From Flavobacteriales bacterium (lineage in GTDB: Bacteria > Bacteroidota > Bacteroidia > Flavobacteriales_C > GCA-002722245): a DNA stretch of 64,000 nucleotides. Made by a program: the position numbers and the translations under genes. This document shows positions 43,057 through 50,824 of the stretch, one piece after another; positions within the stretch are counted from its first letter, which is position 1; every line of letters begins with the position of its first letter. The notes below the pieces were generated by a model, which saw only the letters and a program-made list of their open reading frames with translations, did not search any database and had not been told where the DNA came from. The DNA is taken from assembly GCA_947444925.1 (NCBI GenBank), contig CANFBW010000004.1, positions 1 to 64,000 of the forward strand, in the 5' to 3' direction.

Positions 43057-43467
43057 ATGAATTCTCGAAAAATTTTGAATTGCCTGGTTTTTTTATTTGC
43101 ACTGGTGTTGATTTCATGTGAAAAGCCAGCCGGTCAGGGTGGGACATCTAGTATTAAAGGAAAAATATTTGTGAAGGACTTTAACTCTGCTGCCACTGAT
43201 GTGGTTGCTGAGTATTTTGCTGTTGGGGAAAAAGTGTATATCTCTTTTGGTGATAGTAAAACGGTGGGCAACGACGTGAATTCGGGTTCTGATGGTTCCT
43301 TTGAATTTTTATATCTCAATAAAGGGAAATATACCATTTTCGCTGAATCTCGAGATACTAGCATTCATGTTAGTGGGGCAAGCAAAACCATTGCAAAGGA
43401 AATTGAAGTAAATATTACTGAAAATGGTTCTGTGAAAGATGTTGGTGAAATTGTTATTTACAAATAA
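43057..43467 (+). CDS. Predicted lipoprotein with carboxypeptidase-regulatory-like fold
   Basis: 136 residues. Signal peptide ends in a lipobox (LVLISC, Cys21). The mature part (IKGKIFVKDFNSAATDVVAE, VYISFGDSKTVGNDVNSGSD, GSFEFLYLNKGKYTIFAESR) reads like a single beta-sandwich repeat of CarboxypepD_reg/CNA-B type. It opens the T9SS/polyphosphate gene group, 51 bases before the next gene. Function unknown. The 258 bases upstream are AT-rich and hold only a 15-base imperfect direct repeat (42845 and 42887). Confidence 0.78.
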   Translation: MNSRKILNCLVFLFALVLISCEKPAGQGGTSSIKGKIFVKDFNSAATDVVAEYFAVGEKVYISFGDSKTVGNDVNSGSDGSFEFLYLNKGKYTIFAESRDTSIHVSGASKTIAKEIEVNITENGSVKDVGEIVIYK

Positions 43468-43518
43468 GAAATCTTAATTCAGCTGCTTACAATGCAGTTT
43501 TGTGTATAAGCAAACCCT

Positions 43519-45159
43519 ATGAAATCAATAACTCTACTCTTTTTTACTTTCAGTTTTACATTGGGATTTTCTCAATGGTCTACCGATTCAACTCTGAATA
43601 ATGCAATCTGTACAGAGATGTATGATCAGCAGGACTTAAAAATAACAGAAGATGGTAAAGGTGGTGCCATTGTCTCATGGCTGGATTATCGCAATGATCC
43701 TTTATTAAAGGCAGGAGATGTATTTGTGCAAAGAATTGATGCAAACGGTTTTGTTAAATGGATTGCCAATGGCGTTGCTGTTTGCACTAATGCGAGTGAT
43801 CAATACGGTATAGTGATTGAATCAGATGGTGTTGGTGGGGCATATTTAGCGTGGGTTGACAGACGCAGTGGAAATAGGGACATTTATGCTCAGCATCTTG
43901 ATTCAAATGGTGTAGCAAAATGGACTGCTGATGGTATTGCTGTTTGTACCACTGTTCAAACACAGCAAAATGTTCGTATCGTGAGCAATGGAGTTGATGG
44001 GTGTATACTCGTTTGGGAAGATCAAGTAAGTACCTTTGACGTGTTTGTTCAAAAATTAAATGATAAAGGAATAGTACAATGGACAGCTCAAGGTGTTAAT
44101 ATAAGTTCTTCTTTGGGTGATCAAATAAATCCTAAAGCTGTGAGTGACCAAGCGGGTGGCGTAATAGTAACATGGCAAGATAAAAGAAATGGTTCGGACT
44201 ACGACATCTACGCTCAGCGTATTTCAACGGATGGGATTGCACTTTGGACAGCCAATGGAAAAGTGATTTGTAATTATGCAGGAACACAATCGAATCCTAA
44301 AATCGCCAGTGATTTTAATGGTGGAGCTGTGATTGCGTGGCAAGATAAACGAAATGGTTTGGATTACGATATTTACGCTCAGTATATCAAGGGGGATGGC
44401 GCCACTTCTTGGTTGGCAGGTGGTAAAGCAGTGAGCGCCGCAACTGGTTCACAATCGGCAATAGACATGACGTCTGAGCTTGGCTCTGGCGTGGTACTTA
44501 CCTGGAAAGATTCCCGTCAAGGAAATTCAGATATTTATGCTCAAAAAATTAATTTTTCGGGTGCTATTCAATGGTTGGCCAATGGAATGGTGGTGGTGAA
44601 TTCGGTTTTTGATCAAATAAATCCGAATGTCATTTCTGATGATAACGGTGGAGCTATTGTAACATGGCAAGATTCAAGCTCAGGAAGTTGGGATATTCGC
44701 GCACAACATCTTTTGTCGGTAGGTACTTTGGATTGGAATGTTGCTGGTAAATTTGTTTCTGCAGCTACTAACCATCAAGTGTCTCCAAAAAATTGTAGCG
44801 ATGGTAATGGTGGTAGCATTTTTGCTTTTCAGGATTTTAGAAACGGCAGCAACTATGATATTTATGCTTATAAAATTCAAATAGAAAAAAGTAGTGCAGC
44901 GACCTTTGAATATCATCTTGAAATCGTAAGTATTTTTCCTAATCCATCCAATGGTGTAGTGAATTTTGAGGTTTTGACCCCTTCTTCTTCTTCTTCTTAT
45001 CGATTGACGATGTACAATTCTTTGGGAGAGCAATTTTCAACAAGCAATTTCCAGCAGCATTTTAGTACTGGTGATTTAAGCAGTGGAATATATTTTTATA
45101 ACATAAGTGATTCGTTTAGCAATGAATCCGTTACAAGTGGTAAAATCATAGTAGAGTAA
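43519..45159 (+). CDS. T9SS-secreted beta-propeller-like repeat protein
   Basis: 546 residues: signal peptide (LLFFTFSFTLGFSQ), about eight repeats of 52-56 residues, and a C-terminal type IX sorting domain (VSIFPNPSNGVVNFEVL, then SGIYFYNISD, with SGKIIVE at the end). Each repeat has the pattern GG-x-hydrophobic-x-W-x-D-x-R-x-G-x-x-D-I-Y-A-Q followed by G-x-x-W-x-x-x-G. Eight W-D-containing blades suggest a beta-propeller or a calcium-binding repeat array on the cell surface. Function unknown. Gene context links it to the CotH/polyphosphate genes downstream. Confidence 0.86.
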   Translation: MKSITLLFFTFSFTLGFSQWSTDSTLNNAICTEMYDQQDLKITEDGKGGAIVSWLDYRNDPLLKAGDVFVQRIDANGFVKWIANGVAVCTNASDQYGIVIESDGVGGAYLAWVDRRSGNRDIYAQHLDSNGVAKWTADGIAVCTTVQTQQNVRIVSNGVDGCILVWEDQVSTFDVFVQKLNDKGIVQWTAQGVNISSSLGDQINPKAVSDQAGGVIVTWQDKRNGSDYDIYAQRISTDGIALWTANGKVICNYAGTQSNPKIASDFNGGAVIAWQDKRNGLDYDIYAQYIKGDGATSWLAGGKAVSAATGSQSAIDMTSELGSGVVLTWKDSRQGNSDIYAQKINFSGAIQWLANGMVVVNSVFDQINPNVISDDNGGAIVTWQDSSSGSWDIRAQHLLSVGTLDWNVAGKFVSAATNHQVSPKNCSDGNGGSIFAFQDFRNGSNYDIYAYKIQIEKSSAATFEYHLEIVSIFPNPSNGVVNFEVLTPSSSSSYRLTMYNSLGEQFSTSNFQQHFSTGDLSSGIYFYNISDSFSNESVTSGKIIVE

Positions 45160-45166
45160 GTATTGT

Positions 45167-45652
45167 ATGATGAAAAAAGGATTTTTTGCAACCGTTTTAT
45201 TTCTTGTGCTAAGTGTTTTTCAACTTTCTGCACAAAGTAAAAAGGAAATAAAGAAATACAGTATTAAATGCAGTATCTCCACTGTTTATGAGGAAGGTAA
45301 ATATGTTAATGATAAAAAGACAACTTTTGATAAGGAAGGGAATGTAATTGAAGAGATAGAATATGGAAAGGGTGGGGAGATCAAATCAATTAAAAGAACT
45401 AAATATAATTCTGAAGGAGATGAGATAGAGGAGCTAGAGTACAATGGAGTAAGTGAACTCGAGGAAAGAAAAGTGTATAAATACAATTCTTTAGGCGAAA
45501 AGGTAGAAGAAACAATATACGATGGAATGGGGAAAGTGAAAAAGCGACATGTTTATACTTACAATGCGCAAGGGTTGAAATCAGAGAAGAAAACATACGA
45601 TGCTGCAGGTAAATACATTGCCAGTAAAAAATTTCAGTATGAAGTTAAATAA
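45167..45652 (+). CDS. Secreted YD-like repeat protein
   Basis: 161 residues with a signal peptide (MKKGFFATVLFLVLSVFQLS) and about four repeats of about 22 residues of the form Y-N/D-x-x-G-x-x-x-E-E-x-x-Y, such as KYNSEGDEIEELEYNGV, KYNSLGEKVEETIYDGM and TYNAQGLKSEKKTYDAA. This is the RHS/YD beta-strand pattern. Highly charged (Lys/Glu). Overlaps the start of the VTC gene by 14 bases, so they are translated from one message. Function unknown. Confidence 0.75.
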   Translation: MMKKGFFATVLFLVLSVFQLSAQSKKEIKKYSIKCSISTVYEEGKYVNDKKTTFDKEGNVIEEIEYGKGGEIKSIKRTKYNSEGDEIEELEYNGVSELEERKVYKYNSLGEKVEETIYDGMGKVKKRHVYTYNAQGLKSEKKTYDAAGKYIASKKFQYEVK

Positions 45653-46400
45653 TGATGAAAATATGTTGAACATTAATCTTGATTCTTTTGAAGTTATAGG
45701 CTTGAAGGATATGGATCGTGTGAAGCTTATGAATCGTATTGATAGCAAATACACGTTTAGCATCGGACAACTTTCTTCCATCATCGCGCAGTTGCAACCT
45801 TATTATTATGTAGTAGAGATTGCTGCTAAAAATTGGAGTACCTACGAAACTTTGTATTACGACACATCTGATTTTCGATTGTATCACAAACACCAAAATG
45901 GTGCATTGAACAGGTTTAAAATCCGTCATCGAACATATGTAGATAGTCAGTTAGGTTTTTTAGAAGTGAAATTTAAAAACAATAAAGGGCGCACGAACAA
46001 AGAGAGAATTAAGGCAAGTGCTGTTCCATATTCATGGGAAGAAAATCAATTTTGTTTTTTAGAAAAAGAATTGAATTTTGATCCGCAAACTTTACAGCCT
46101 GTTTTATGGATCAATTACAAGCGATTGACTTTGGTTAATAAAGTGAGTGCCGAACGTGTTACTATTGATGTTTCGATGGAGTTTATTAAGGATGGTGTTT
46201 CTCAAACATTAAATAATTTAGTGATTGCTGAAGTAAAGCAAGAGAAAAAACAACATTCTCCCTTTGTGAAAGTTATGAAGGCTTTGCACTTACGTGAAGG
46301 ATCAATTAGTAAATATTGCTTGGGTGTTTGCTATATGCAAACCGATATAAAAAGAAATAATTTCAAAGAAAAACTTAATAATTTAAAATATATTTTGTGA
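45639..46400 (+). CDS. VTC-domain polyphosphate polymerase
   Basis: 253 residues. It has the tunnel-fold motifs of VTC polyphosphate polymerases: RIDSKYTF near residue 32, the tyrosine-rich YETLYYDTSDF, KIRHRTYVD with basic substrate ligands, FLEVKFKNNKGRTNKERI, and VIAEVKQEKK. It should make inorganic polyphosphate from ATP at the inner face of the membrane, possibly coupled to export. Followed without gap by DUF4956 (TGATG, one shared base), the usual partner of bacterial VTC proteins. An ATG 8 codons later is possible. Confidence 0.86.
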   Translation: MKLNNDENMLNINLDSFEVIGLKDMDRVKLMNRIDSKYTFSIGQLSSIIAQLQPYYYVVEIAAKNWSTYETLYYDTSDFRLYHKHQNGALNRFKIRHRTYVDSQLGFLEVKFKNNKGRTNKERIKASAVPYSWEENQFCFLEKELNFDPQTLQPVLWINYKRLTLVNKVSAERVTIDVSMEFIKDGVSQTLNNLVIAEVKQEKKQHSPFVKVMKALHLREGSISKYCLGVCYMQTDIKRNNFKEKLNNLKYIL

Positions 46401-47044
46401 TGGTGCTTTTAGATATAATGACGGATGATACTGCTATACATGGTGTAGATGCTCTTCAAAAAATTTCAGGAAAATTTGCCTGGCGCTTACTCATTGATTT
46501 CGCTTCTGTGTTCATTTTAATACGGTTTATCTATTATAAAATTTACAAAAGCACCGAGCTTTTTTTTACCTTTTTTATTTTCAATTTGGTGATTTTCTTA
46601 ATTGCTTTTATGCTTAATAAAGTGGATTTATCCATGGGGGCTGCTTTTGGTTTGTTTGCTGTTTTTTCAATGCTGCGCTACCGCACCGAAGACATTTCTA
46701 TAAAAGACATGACTTATTTGTTTTTGGTAATTGCATTAGGTTTAATGTCGGCAGTTACTAAAATTAAAGACACCAGTGATGCCTTGGAATATCTTTTTTT
46801 AGGAGGAGTTAACGTCACGATTTTGCTCATCACTTATTTTTTGGAGAGCTCCACTTTAATGAGGAAGGAAGGAACTAAAATTGTAATTTATGATAATGTG
46901 GAACTAATAAAGGAGGGTAGACATAATGAATTAATTGCCGACTTAAGTCTGAAAACAGGCGTTACTGTGCATAGATATACTATTCAAAGAGTTGATTTTT
47001 TAAGAGATAGTGTTCAAATAAAAATTCATTTTTTTGAAAAATAA
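46400..47044 (+). CDS. DUF4956 integral membrane protein
   Basis: 214 residues with about four membrane helices near residues 24-135 (LLIDFASVFILIRFIYYKIY, FTFFIFNLVIFLIAFMLNKV, and others), then a soluble C-terminal domain (IVIYDNVELIKEGRHNELIA, VTVHRYTIQRVDFLRDSVQI). This is the DUF4956 pattern, a family that co-occurs with VTC polymerases and is proposed to work with them in polyphosphate handling; its role is not established. Translationally coupled to the VTC gene. Confidence 0.85.
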   Translation: MVLLDIMTDDTAIHGVDALQKISGKFAWRLLIDFASVFILIRFIYYKIYKSTELFFTFFIFNLVIFLIAFMLNKVDLSMGAAFGLFAVFSMLRYRTEDISIKDMTYLFLVIALGLMSAVTKIKDTSDALEYLFLGGVNVTILLITYFLESSTLMRKEGTKIVIYDNVELIKEGRHNELIADLSLKTGVTVHRYTIQRVDFLRDSVQIKIHFFEK

Positions 47045-47056
47045 ATTTCGTAAATA

Positions 47057-47779
47057 ATGAGCAGTAGTTTCAAAAAGCTAATTTCATTCTTGAGTTGTTT
47101 AATGTTGTTATCCTATTGCTCTGCACAAATTATTTACGCAAACGATGCTCAGTTAAGGACGGATGTTTCGCTAAGTAAAAAATTAAATGATTTTTTTTCT
47201 TTGCAAGTGCAGGAACAGGCGCGATGGTCGAATAACATTTCGTCTTTCGAGCGGGCAAGTACCGATTTGAGTTTTTCATGTGCAATCAATAAAAGATTAA
47301 AAATCACCAGTGGATATGTACATATCTACAAAATGAAAAATGCGATCGATGCAAGCATTCGCCATCGTTTTTATCTGTCGCTAACACTTAAAGCCGACTA
47401 TTATTTATGGAAATTTCAATACCGCTGCCAGCTGCAAAATCAGCTGAATGATCCATTCTTCTCAAAATATGGAACGACCAATTATATTTACAATCGACAT
47501 AAAATAACTGTTAAGTATGAAATTTCTAAAAGGCTTAGTGTTTATTTAGCTGATGAGCTTTATTTGCCTCTAAATAATCCTGGCTTGTTAGGCTTTGATA
47601 GAAATAGATTTTATGTAGGCTGCACTTACAAAATTTCAAAGAAACAAAGTGTTGATGTTTATTTTATGAATCAACGGAAACTGCAATTTAACGACTGGCC
47701 GAAGTACGGTGCTGATTTTTCTGAGAATGGATTTACCTCTGATTATGTTTGTGGATTGTCATATGCTGTTGAATTCTAA
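47057..47779 (+). CDS. DUF2490-like outer-membrane beta-barrel protein
   Basis: 240 residues with a signal peptide (KLISFLSCLMLLSYCSAQ) and repeated aromatic-edged strands (FERASTDLSFSCAINKRLKI, FYLSLTLKADYYLWKFQYRC, RNRFYVGCTYKISKKQSVDV) ending in Phe (YAVEF), as required for outer-membrane insertion by BAM. It resembles DUF2490. Placed in the polyphosphate operon, it may be an outer-membrane exit or anchor; this is inference. Confidence 0.78.
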   Translation: MSSSFKKLISFLSCLMLLSYCSAQIIYANDAQLRTDVSLSKKLNDFFSLQVQEQARWSNNISSFERASTDLSFSCAINKRLKITSGYVHIYKMKNAIDASIRHRFYLSLTLKADYYLWKFQYRCQLQNQLNDPFFSKYGTTNYIYNRHKITVKYEISKRLSVYLADELYLPLNNPGLLGFDRNRFYVGCTYKISKKQSVDVYFMNQRKLQFNDWPKYGADFSENGFTSDYVCGLSYAVEF

Positions 47780-47855
47780 AAGTAGCTTTGTTGCAAAAAA
47801 TAATAATGGAATACCTGTTTTTTTTGCTATTTTAAAGCACCTATACACTCTACTT

Positions 47856-50702
47856 ATGAATAAAAAATTACTGTCGGTGCTGCCGATGATCACATTAAGT
47901 GCGTTTTGCTTAGCTCAAATAGCTGTTCCCCCTAATACAATCAGTACTAACTTCAACAGCGGGTATTATAATGCAACATTTACATTGCAGGTTAATTCAA
48001 CAAAAATCGGTGATACTATTTTGTATACTTTGTATGGGAGTGATCCTCGCATTGCACTTGGTGCGGTTACTAAATACACTCCTTTTACTATCGTTATAGA
48101 TCCGACGTCAACTACTGGCAGAGATAAAACTCCGGCTGTTACCCTTCGCCTCACAAAAAAAACCAACGGACAGTTCACTGTTCCTATCAGTAAAACATAC
48201 ATATTCCTCGATGCTGTTAAAACGCAAGGTAATCCCGCAGGATCCTATTGGCCAGCTCCAAATCCAATCAATGATCAGGTATTGGATTACGATATGGATA
48301 GCAAAGTAGTCAACGATAATTTGTACAAAGATTCTATTGATGATGCATTGTTGCAAATTCCTAGTATTTCTATCATCACCAAACAAACTAATTTAACAGA
48401 TGCAGCTACAGGAATCTATGTTAATCCATCGGGTGAAGGTAAAGCTTGGGAGCGTGAAGCTTCCGTTGAATTAATTAATCCCGACAATAGTCAGGGATTT
48501 CAGGTTGAAGCGGGTTTGCGAATTCGCGGTGGATACAGTAGAAGTACTGATAATCCGAAACATGCGTTTCGATTATTTTTCAGAAATGAATATGGTTATG
48601 GAAAACTGAAATTCCCATTGTTTGGTCAAGAAGGACATGATGAATTTGATAAAATTGATTTGCGTACGAGTCAAAATTACTCGTGGAGCTTCGCTGGTAG
48701 TTCACGAAATACCATTCTTCGTGATATATTTAGTAGGGATCTTCAAGGGGCTATGCTCCAGCCTTATACCAAAGGGCGTTTTTATCATTTGTACTTAAAC
48801 GGAATGTACTGGGGGATTTATCAAACTGATGAAAGGCCATCGGCAGATTTTGGTGAAAGTTATATTGGTGGAAAAGCAGAAGATTATGACGTGATAAAAG
48901 TGGAAACTAATAATGGCTATACCATTGAAGCTACTGATGGTAATTTAAATGCTTGGGAATCTGTATGGAATTTATGTCAGCAAGGTTTTTCATCCAACGA
49001 CAATTATTTTATGTTGCAAGGATTAGATAATGCAGGGAAGAGAGATTCTACATTACCTGTTTTGGTTGATGTCGAAAATCTAATTGACTATATGCTGCTT
49101 ATATTTTATACCGGAAATGTTGATGCTCCAGTTTCTGAATTTTTAGGTAATGCTTCGCCCAATAATTTTTATGCGATCAGAAACAGAAATGGCAAAAAGG
49201 GCTTTAAGTTTATCGCCCACGATAGTGAACATACTTTATTGGTTCAGCCTGGTGATGCCGGATCGGGGATCAATGAAAATCGTGTAAACATTGGCAGCAA
49301 TGGTGAAATGGTGGTGACTGATTTTTCTAAATTTCAGCCGCAGTGGCTCCATTACAAATTGTGTTCTAACGCCAATTACCGTGCACTTTTTGCAGATAAG
49401 GTGTACAAACACTTTTACAATAATGGTGCGATGACCGTTGGAAATATGCAAAAGCTTTTCAGAAAACGCGCTGCCGAAATTCAAACGGCCATCATCGCTG
49501 AGTCGGCGCGTTGGGGCGATGCTCAATCACAATGGTCGGCACACACCAAAGCAAACGACTGGTTGCCCGAAGTGAATAACATCCTGAATAACTTTTTTTC
49601 ACCTCGAAGAGATATCGTTTTGACGCAGCTAATTGATGAAAATTTATTTAGCACGCTTCATGCGCCAATTTTCATTTTTCAAGATGTTGCTTTTGAAAGC
49701 GCCGTGTTGAAAACCACAACTATCAGCAATCTGAAGTTTAACAATGACAACGGAAAAGGAGTCATCTATTATACTTTCGATGGAAGTGACCCACGAAGCA
49801 TTGATGATGTAATTGCTTCTTCAGCTATACAAATGAGCAACAATGGTGTGTTTTCTTTAAATGCAGGAGGAGTTATGAAAGCACGTATTTATTACAACGG
49901 ACAATGGAGTCCCTTGCATCAGTTGACAATATATATTCCAGCTCAACTAGAAAAATTGAAAATAACTGAAATTCATTTCCACCCTAAATCAAATGATATA
50001 GCTACCGCCGCAAAGGATTTAGAATTTATTGAATTGAAAAACACTGGTAACACACCATTGAATTTAAGCGGATTGTCTTTTGCTAGTGGTATTGATTATT
50101 CTTTTCCGGAAGGAACGGTGATACAAGCTGGATCTTTTATAGTATTGGCTGCTCAGGATTCGGTATTTAAAGCCAATTACAAATTCAGTCCCTTTGGTGA
50201 GTACGATCGTAATTTAAGCGATGGAGGTGATGAATTACTTTTGAAACTCGCTAACGGCGATACTTTAATTGATATACAGTATCTCAATATTACTCCATGG
50301 CCAACGCAGGCCAACGGATTTGGGCCTACCATGGTAACAACTTTAATTAATCCTATTGGTAATCAAAACGATGGAACTAAATGGGTGGCGTCTTATGCTG
50401 TAAATGGCTCTCCGGGAGCCGATGAGTCACTTCCAAATAGTGGTGCTCATACACAAAATGTTTACGCTAAAATATATCCTAATCCTTTTAATGATATTGT
50501 TGTGGTTGAGCTTTCCTCGTCATCATCCAATGAATATGAAGTGCTTGTTCAAAATGCATTGGGCGAAAATGTGCAAAGAACCTTGATTTACGGATCAATA
50601 CCTTCTACTATAAAATTCAGTGAATTGCCTGAAGGGCTGTACTTTATGAGCATCAGTAATCCGAATTTCAAACAAACGGTGAAGTTGGTGAAAACAAATT
50701 GA
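47856..50702 (+). CDS. Secreted CotH-kinase / lamin-tail protein with T9SS signal
   Basis: 948 residues. Signal peptide (MNKKLLSVLPMITLSAFCLA), a chitobiase C-terminal-like domain (TLQVNSTKIGDTILYTLYGS), the CotH kinase domain at about residues 150-500 (LRIRGGYSRSTDNPKHAFRL, YLNGMYWGIYQTDERPS, KFIAHDSEHTLL with the catalytic-type Asp), another chitobiase-like strand set (IYYTFDGSDPRS), a lamin-tail domain (KLKITEIHFHPKS, DLEFIELKNTGNTPLNLSGL) and a C-terminal Por sorting domain (KIYPNPFNDIVVVEL). CotH is an atypical kinase fold that phosphorylates spore coat proteins in Bacillus. Here it would act outside the cell. An upstream in-frame ORF extension is spurious. Confidence 0.9.
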   Translation: MNKKLLSVLPMITLSAFCLAQIAVPPNTISTNFNSGYYNATFTLQVNSTKIGDTILYTLYGSDPRIALGAVTKYTPFTIVIDPTSTTGRDKTPAVTLRLTKKTNGQFTVPISKTYIFLDAVKTQGNPAGSYWPAPNPINDQVLDYDMDSKVVNDNLYKDSIDDALLQIPSISIITKQTNLTDAATGIYVNPSGEGKAWEREASVELINPDNSQGFQVEAGLRIRGGYSRSTDNPKHAFRLFFRNEYGYGKLKFPLFGQEGHDEFDKIDLRTSQNYSWSFAGSSRNTILRDIFSRDLQGAMLQPYTKGRFYHLYLNGMYWGIYQTDERPSADFGESYIGGKAEDYDVIKVETNNGYTIEATDGNLNAWESVWNLCQQGFSSNDNYFMLQGLDNAGKRDSTLPVLVDVENLIDYMLLIFYTGNVDAPVSEFLGNASPNNFYAIRNRNGKKGFKFIAHDSEHTLLVQPGDAGSGINENRVNIGSNGEMVVTDFSKFQPQWLHYKLCSNANYRALFADKVYKHFYNNGAMTVGNMQKLFRKRAAEIQTAIIAESARWGDAQSQWSAHTKANDWLPEVNNILNNFFSPRRDIVLTQLIDENLFSTLHAPIFIFQDVAFESAVLKTTTISNLKFNNDNGKGVIYYTFDGSDPRSIDDVIASSAIQMSNNGVFSLNAGGVMKARIYYNGQWSPLHQLTIYIPAQLEKLKITEIHFHPKSNDIATAAKDLEFIELKNTGNTPLNLSGLSFASGIDYSFPEGTVIQAGSFIVLAAQDSVFKANYKFSPFGEYDRNLSDGGDELLLKLANGDTLIDIQYLNITPWPTQANGFGPTMVTTLINPIGNQNDGTKWVASYAVNGSPGADESLPNSGAHTQNVYAKIYPNPFNDIVVVELSSSSSNEYEVLVQNALGENVQRTLIYGSIPSTIKFSELPEGLYFMSISNPNFKQTVKLVKTN

Positions 50703-50732: not shown

Positions 50733-50824
50733 AATTGTCTGAATCTTGATTCACGTGATGAAAGGATTTAAGTAGGTGTAGTCGAGACAATCTTTTACTT
50801 AAGTGAATCAAGATTCAGACAATT
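50733..50824. repeat. Long imperfect palindrome (22-bp arms)
   Basis: Bases 50733-50754 and 50803-50824 are a perfect 22-bp inverted repeat. Inside, TTAAGTA (50768-50774) pairs with TACTTAA (50796-50802), which abuts the outer right arm, leaving a 13-base bulge on the left. The folded element is 92 bases. No T-run follows on either side, so it is not a standard terminator. A miniature transposable element or a structured RNA is possible. Confidence 0.65.

Follow-up and report, generated by a model that had tools for sequence, protein, structure and literature searches.

In streptococci, clostridia and bifidobacteria, pelDEADAFG loci have been described with accessory genes for a CotH protein, a polyphosphate polymerase and a DUF4956 protein, in some cases joined by DUF4832 (PMC7112168). 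The Streptococcus intermedius version of this trio (SIR_1591-1594) was the subject of a 2025 study, whose authors state that they saw no such arrangement beyond Pel loci (PMC12345266). A related cluster, NELoc-2 of Clostridium perfringens, encodes VTC, a protein annotated as tubulin/FtsZ, and CotH (PMC2879425, PMC11677781). Here we report the same trio from a Flavobacteriales bacterium (assembly GCA_947444925.1), in a stretch of 64,000 nucleotides, positions 1 to 64,000 of contig CANFBW010000004.1, which we refer to as the window. The trio forms one cluster at 45663-50702, with a DUF2490 gene between DUF4956 and cotH, and belongs to a block of seven co-directional genes on the + strand (43057-50702) that encode, in order, a lipoprotein (LP), a secreted repeat protein (REP), a small secreted YD-like protein (YD), VTC, DUF4956, DUF2490 and CotH; all seven open reading frames (ORFs) of the original prediction were confirmed.

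As in the pel accessory loci, a secreted CotH, a VTC-type polymerase and a DUF4956 membrane protein adjoin each other, but the Bacteroidota partners are LP, YD, DUF2490 and cargo of the type IX secretion system (T9SS), and CotH carries a lamin tail domain (LTD) and T9SS signals. NELoc-2 resembles the block in that VTC genes adjoin CotH, but is Gram-positive, includes a glycosyltransferase and a polysaccharide deacetylase, and lacks T9SS partners. The window block is flanked by genes for a methyltransferase, a BadF-type protein and Prc (Pfam), with no pelDEADAFG genes recognised beside it, and no pel-like cluster was seen among the recurring neighbours of 120 loci, in both cases without direct searches with pel models. 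The trio is common outside Pel loci, contrary to the statement in PMC12345266. The earlier description of the block as the most likely undescribed system of the window therefore needs qualifying: the trio is already described in pel loci (PMC7112168, PMC12345266), but the open-licence literature turned up no account of a T9SS-linked form in Bacteroidota that is free of pel and includes LP, YD and DUF2490. The data unite VTC, DUF4956 and CotH in a widespread set of this kind, together with LP, for which there is no curated model, and DUF2490, a barrel of unassigned function.

Comparison with relatives established the block as a conserved system rather than a chance neighbourhood, and we are nearly certain that it is a real functional system. 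In 60 relatives, as a rule a single genome for each family within the same class, we located DUF4956 and scanned stretches of ~9-20 kb around it with profile models built from the window genes; a second set comprised 80 loci from named genomes. A few loci are near-duplicates of one genome, which slightly inflates locus counts. Recurring beside VTC-DUF4956 in the 120 loci, and nearly always on the same strand, were LP (~61), YD (49), DUF2490 (85) and CotH (~54). The commonest full order around 115 DUF4956 loci was CotH-LP-YD-VTC-DUF4956-DUF2490, with DUF2490 directly 3' of DUF4956 in 75 of the 115, and the gene immediately 5' of VTC was YD or LP in 68 of 106 loci (YD in 45 of 106). VTC adjoined DUF4956 in 35/39 cases against 0.11 expected under random placement, LP lay near VTC in 21/33 (0.09 expected), and CotH lay within 6 kb of VTC in 18/39 (0.65 expected). 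The reading frame of VTC runs into that of DUF4956 in 91 of 108 loci, and in the window the DUF4956 start overlaps the VTC stop by 4 bases. This genome has a single copy each of VTC, DUF4956 and CotH, and their shared operon is therefore not due to chance. The original prediction would have been refuted had the T9SS and YD proteins shown no conserved association with VTC and CotH, and the comparison did not refute it: YD is strongly and repeatedly tied to VTC-DUF4956, as are LP, DUF2490 and CotH, whereas REP occurs in few lineages (~10/120 loci, at 41-52% identity to the window copy, beside LP/VTC or CotH) and was rejected as a core component.

Association of these genes extends beyond adjacency. 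Within the class, 28 of the 60 genomes encode LP, and every one of these also carries CotH and main-type DUF4956; LP is absent from all 24 genomes that lack main-type DUF4956. CotH was present in 33 of 34 class genomes with VTC. Across a phylum sample (n=109), CotH occurred in 20/20 VTC genomes vs 23/89 without VTC (Fisher 3e-10; p-values are indicative only because the genomes are related, although those of the class come mostly from different families). Among 20 genomes picked mainly because no CotH lay near VTC-DUF4956, a few of them from outside Bacteroidota, 17 encode CotH, including members of Calditrichota, Kapaibacteria and Myxococcota. LP-DUF2490 pairs situated apart from VTC are often beside CotH (L154, L155, L156, L162). 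The dependence is one-way, as VTC is seldom found without CotH and CotH is often found without VTC, a pattern expected if CotH consumes the product of VTC but can work otherwise.

The VTC protein belongs to PF09359 (1.3e-28; 100.6 bits vs a Pfam cut-off of 23), and its profile matches the solved structure of yeast Vtc4 (3g3q, E 1.6e-8), aligning with it over its N-terminal two thirds. Invariant over 30 sequences are R24, K28, R83, K85, R87, R89, E100, K102, K104, R153, E189, K191, S215 and K216, whose basic and acidic members we take to be the catalytic set of the Vtc4 tunnel site, assuming the Vtc4 residue roles as generally understood. Judged by these residues the active site is intact, and the protein probably makes polyphosphate. 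The eukaryotic VTC complex (Vtc1-4; 3g3q, 7ytj) is similar in its VTC catalytic domain, where the basic and acidic residues correspond, and in coupling the polymerase to a membrane part, which is known for yeast and suggested for the block; it differs in that the bacterial VTC stands alone as a soluble protein lacking SPX, and in that DUF4956 matches the Vtc membrane domain neither in sequence nor in fold. The genome also encodes PPK1 apart from the block, so VTC is additional to PPK1, and the idea that it stands in for PPK1 was dropped for this genome.

CotH contains PF08757 (4e-19; 69.7 bits vs cut-off 23.8), LTD (PF00932, 1e-14) and Por_Secre_tail (PF18962, 1e-10; 42.1 bits vs 27). It shares a kinase-like family with the Bacillus spore-coat kinase CotH (5jd9), which works inside the mother cell, whereas the block protein is predicted to be exported by the T9SS and is fused to LTD. 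The CotH profile matches 5jd9 (E 2.7e-21), and the key Asp/Asn/Asp are kept: D423, N437 and D456 align with the catalytic Asp (B. subtilis D228) and the metal-site Asn and Asp, while the WDxD motif lacks its second Asp. The substitution D228Q abolishes activity of B. subtilis CotH (PMC7821199). The predicted active site is intact, and the block CotH can be described as a predicted kinase-like protein. Searches of the PDB with a single VTC or CotH sequence found nothing relevant, but profile searches succeeded.

The remaining proteins point to the cell envelope. DUF4956 (PF16316, 1.2e-46) has an AlphaFold model (pLDDT 82) with five predicted helices, comprising a helical membrane part and a C-terminal beta-alpha-beta-beta domain; R94 and R96 are invariant and located at the junction of helices 3 and 4, and from our own reading of the charge distribution this junction and the C-terminal domain are probably cytosolic. 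The protein first described as DUF2490-like is a true family member (PF10677, 4.8e-28, well above cut-off), with a model of eleven antiparallel strands (pLDDT 85.5) that matched porin-type barrels in Foldseek. LP has a clean lipobox and matched no family above curated cut-off in Pfam or NCBIfam. REP carries a Por_Secre_tail (Pfam, 4e-9; 37.0 bits vs cut-off 27) and a beta_prop_Msarc repeat match (6e-13) that falls below the family cut-off. YD, predicted to be secreted, was originally proposed to be a YD-repeat protein; its YD-like repeats give a weak assignment (TIGR01643, 20.4 bits vs cut-off 15.8), with no Pfam match.

By predicted location these proteins form a series from cytoplasm to surface: VTC without signal peptide, DUF4956 in the inner membrane, the DUF2490 barrel, the lipoprotein LP, and CotH and REP exported by the T9SS. 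We propose that VTC would polymerise phosphate from ATP in the cytosol, and that DUF4956 would act as its membrane partner, moving or gating the chain across the inner membrane in the manner of the membrane portion of the eukaryotic complex. DUF2490 and LP may help the chain cross the outer envelope, or hold it there, and surface CotH, acting where no ATP is expected, would take polyphosphate, or a product of it, as phosphate source for targets such as REP, LP, YD or other T9SS cargo. An inside-to-outside polyphosphate route is plausible, and outward movement of the polymer by DUF4956 falls just short of an even bet, but use of polyphosphate as donor by CotH seems doubtful. The gene set itself is firm; the overall route from VTC through DUF4956 to surface CotH is a hypothesis that we hold tentatively, and its fullest form, in which VTC-DUF4956 makes and exports polyphosphate and surface CotH phosphorylates T9SS cargo, or attaches polyphosphate to it, without extracellular ATP, we regard as rather improbable. 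If true, it would constitute an ATP-free protein phosphorylation system at the bacterial surface. The block bears on how bacterial extracellular kinases obtain phosphate and on the roles of bacterial VTC and DUF4956, and the gene set offers a direct test in cultured environmental Bacteroidota: cotH-VTC-DUF4956-DUF2490 is present in Runella zeae DSM 19591 (L106), Runella aurantiaca (L097), Flectobacillus longus (L098), Emticicia sp. (L103) and Larkinella humicola (L107).

Neighbouring genes in relatives give hints about export. Directly beside divergent VTC-DUF4956 pairs in other classes of the phylum is a gene for an HlyD-like adaptor, above the Pfam cut-off in 3 of 6 tested, and in a sister genus (g2) the gene that comes right after DUF4956 encodes an inorganic pyrophosphatase bearing a lipoprotein signal (G006, L036:10437-11087; of G005, G006 and G008, neighbouring ORFs were scanned in G006). 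These neighbours, neither of which is in the window, hint that phosphate or polymer is handled outside the inner membrane. The HlyD-type, membrane-fusion-like proteins were seen at L177:4523-5599, L176:4119-5240 and L186:7187-8299, and in L183, L184 and L187. SdiA-regulated/phytase-like beta-propeller proteins occur in L175 and L177, and a 615-aa beta-helix lipoprotein precedes VTC in the G006 locus L036.

A number of observations weigh against the proposed route. DUF4956 matched no solved structure by sequence or fold, and hence no solved transporter, and the C-terminal domain looks like a regulatory fold of the ACT type. Of the 43 CotH-bearing genomes in the phylum sample, 13 lack both VTC and DUF4956 and another 10 have DUF4956 with no detected VTC; CotH can therefore work without VTC, and the notion that it always needs VTC was rejected (23/43 without detected VTC). 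B. subtilis CotH likewise needs no VTC. In one genome with CotH and no VTC (G048), CotH is a predicted lipoprotein, and some genomes (G014, G022) have DUF4956 genes without VTC or CotH. Co-occurrence of VTC and CotH could also partly reflect genome lifestyle. The main counter-evidence is experimental: deletion of the S. intermedius polyphosphate polymerase gene SIR_1593 brought no reported change, and deletions of DUF4956 and CotH alter aggregation and the amount of Pel, shifting the latter in opposite directions (PMC12345266).

Several of these points would also be expected if VTC-DUF4956 were a regulatory module, in which DUF4956 senses a metabolite or polyphosphate and controls envelope output while CotH phosphorylates surface proteins from another donor. 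The DUF4956 model, with an MgtC-like membrane part and the C-terminal ACT-like domain predicted to be cytosolic, fits such a role, and its S. intermedius homologue SIR_1592 has been described as an MgtC transmembrane domain with an intracellular ACT domain; its deletion raises the amount of Pel, and that of CotH lowers it (PMC12345266). The occurrence of DUF4956 and CotH without detected VTC in 10 of the 109 phylum genomes agrees with this as well. Against it, a VTC with the full catalytic residue set adjoins DUF4956 in 35/39 cases, and a purely regulatory pair would not be expected to have outer-membrane or export-type partners (DUF2490, HlyD-like); we judge this explanation unlikely.

Less probable still is that polyphosphate itself ends up on the surface as the product, serving as an anionic matrix or binding metals while LP, REP or DUF2490 hold it, with CotH priming or anchoring it by phosphorylating surface proteins or joining chains to them. 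The secreted partners REP, YD and LP have no recognised enzyme domains, and the lipoprotein pyrophosphatase neighbour in the sister genus and the Gram-positive link to exopolysaccharide (Pel) loci and aggregation (PMC7112168, PMC12345266) are compatible with a surface polymer. Yet no known polyphosphate-anchor family was recognised, and for the one published VTC deletion that we found no change in aggregation was reported (PMC12345266).

The block appears to have a distinct history within the genus. Its GC content is 0.364 vs 0.40-0.42 in the flanks, and GC3 is 0.28-0.34 vs 0.38-0.48, in agreement with the AT-rich coding style first noticed. Two congeners (G001, G003) lack all seven genes and have the BadF-like gene and prc as direct neighbours, 114-157 bases apart, exactly where the seven genes sit in the window. 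The block is at the same site in G002, and G004 matches the window on the left border and differs on the right. Because the empty site is clean and GC3 is low, gain by the ancestor of the window genome (G000), G002 and G004 is more likely than clean loss, which lends support to the horizontal acquisition suggested in the original prediction. An AT-rich island missing from that site in two congeners might suggest that the genes are neighbours through shared history only, on a mobile or T9SS-rich island, with no joint work, but we strongly disfavour this as very improbable, given that the same genes reunite in many families in different orders and sites, co-occur even when not side by side, and include overlapping VTC and DUF4956 frames.

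Several individual loci are worth recording. Seventeen of 121 DUF4956-anchored loci adjoin porV and usually porU too, genes of the T9SS sortase and shuttle (chance would give ~0.5 porU): L042, L048, L050, L052, L053, L062, L091, L093, L112, L115, L116, L135, L136, L142, L145, L149 and L152, where ispF, gldJ and a porP-family gene are often present as well. The position, which may have been inherited since ancient times, still links the operon physically to the T9SS. At L063:3073-5775, cotH is preceded by genes for two T9SS proteins, one arylsulfotransferase-like (561 aa) and one carbohydrate-module-like (335 aa), and relatives of the former occur in ~13 loci. In G036 (L055:8830-11081), LP-YD-DUF4956-DUF2490 are found without VTC, which has no match anywhere in that genome; the module may thus persist where the polymerase has been lost or replaced. 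A single ORF joining the end of VTC to DUF4956 (L143:4-897) was not used as proof of coupling, as it comes from one Chitinophagia metagenome-assembled contig where a one-base error in the overlap would mimic fusion, and a long DUF4956 ORF in L042 is a high-GC artefact. A Bacteroidota-like VTC-DUF4956 pair in an archaeal assembly, where its contig measures 8 kb (L113, Methanoperedens record NZ_FZMP01000233; genome without CotH) is possibly misbinned and was not weighed.

Features of the block and its right border in the window
Feature	Position	Strand	Description
LP	43057..43467	+	lipoprotein of 136 aa with LISC lipobox; conserved short domain, beta-rich
REP	43519..45159	+	546-aa secreted protein, ~8 W/Q-D-x-R repeats (beta-propeller-like), T9SS type A C-terminal signal
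YD	45167..45652	+	161-aa secreted protein, YD-like repeats; signal peptide judged by eye
VTC-domain polymerase	45663..46400	+	245 aa, without signal peptide; PF09359
DUF4956 inner-membrane protein	46397..47044	+	215 aa, GTG start; PF16316
DUF2490, predicted outer-membrane beta-barrel	47057..47779	+	PF10677
CotH kinase fold + LTD + T9SS signal	47856..50702	+	948 aa; PF08757, PF00932, PF18962
Inverted repeat	50733..50824	n/a	perfect 22-bp arms, 48-bp loop, shortly 3' of cotH

Two gene starts were revised. VTC very likely begins at 45663, downstream of the listed ORF start at 45600, and CotH very likely at the ATG at 47856, which gives a protein with a signal peptide, rather than at 47709, which overlaps DUF2490; the CotH orthologue in G002 has the same length. 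The inverted repeat (arms AATTGTCTGAATCTTGATTCAC ... GTGAATCAAGATTCAGACAATT; RNA fold z = -3.8) lies in the gap separating cotH from prc, close to where the block ends on the right, and is possibly a terminator or repeat element.

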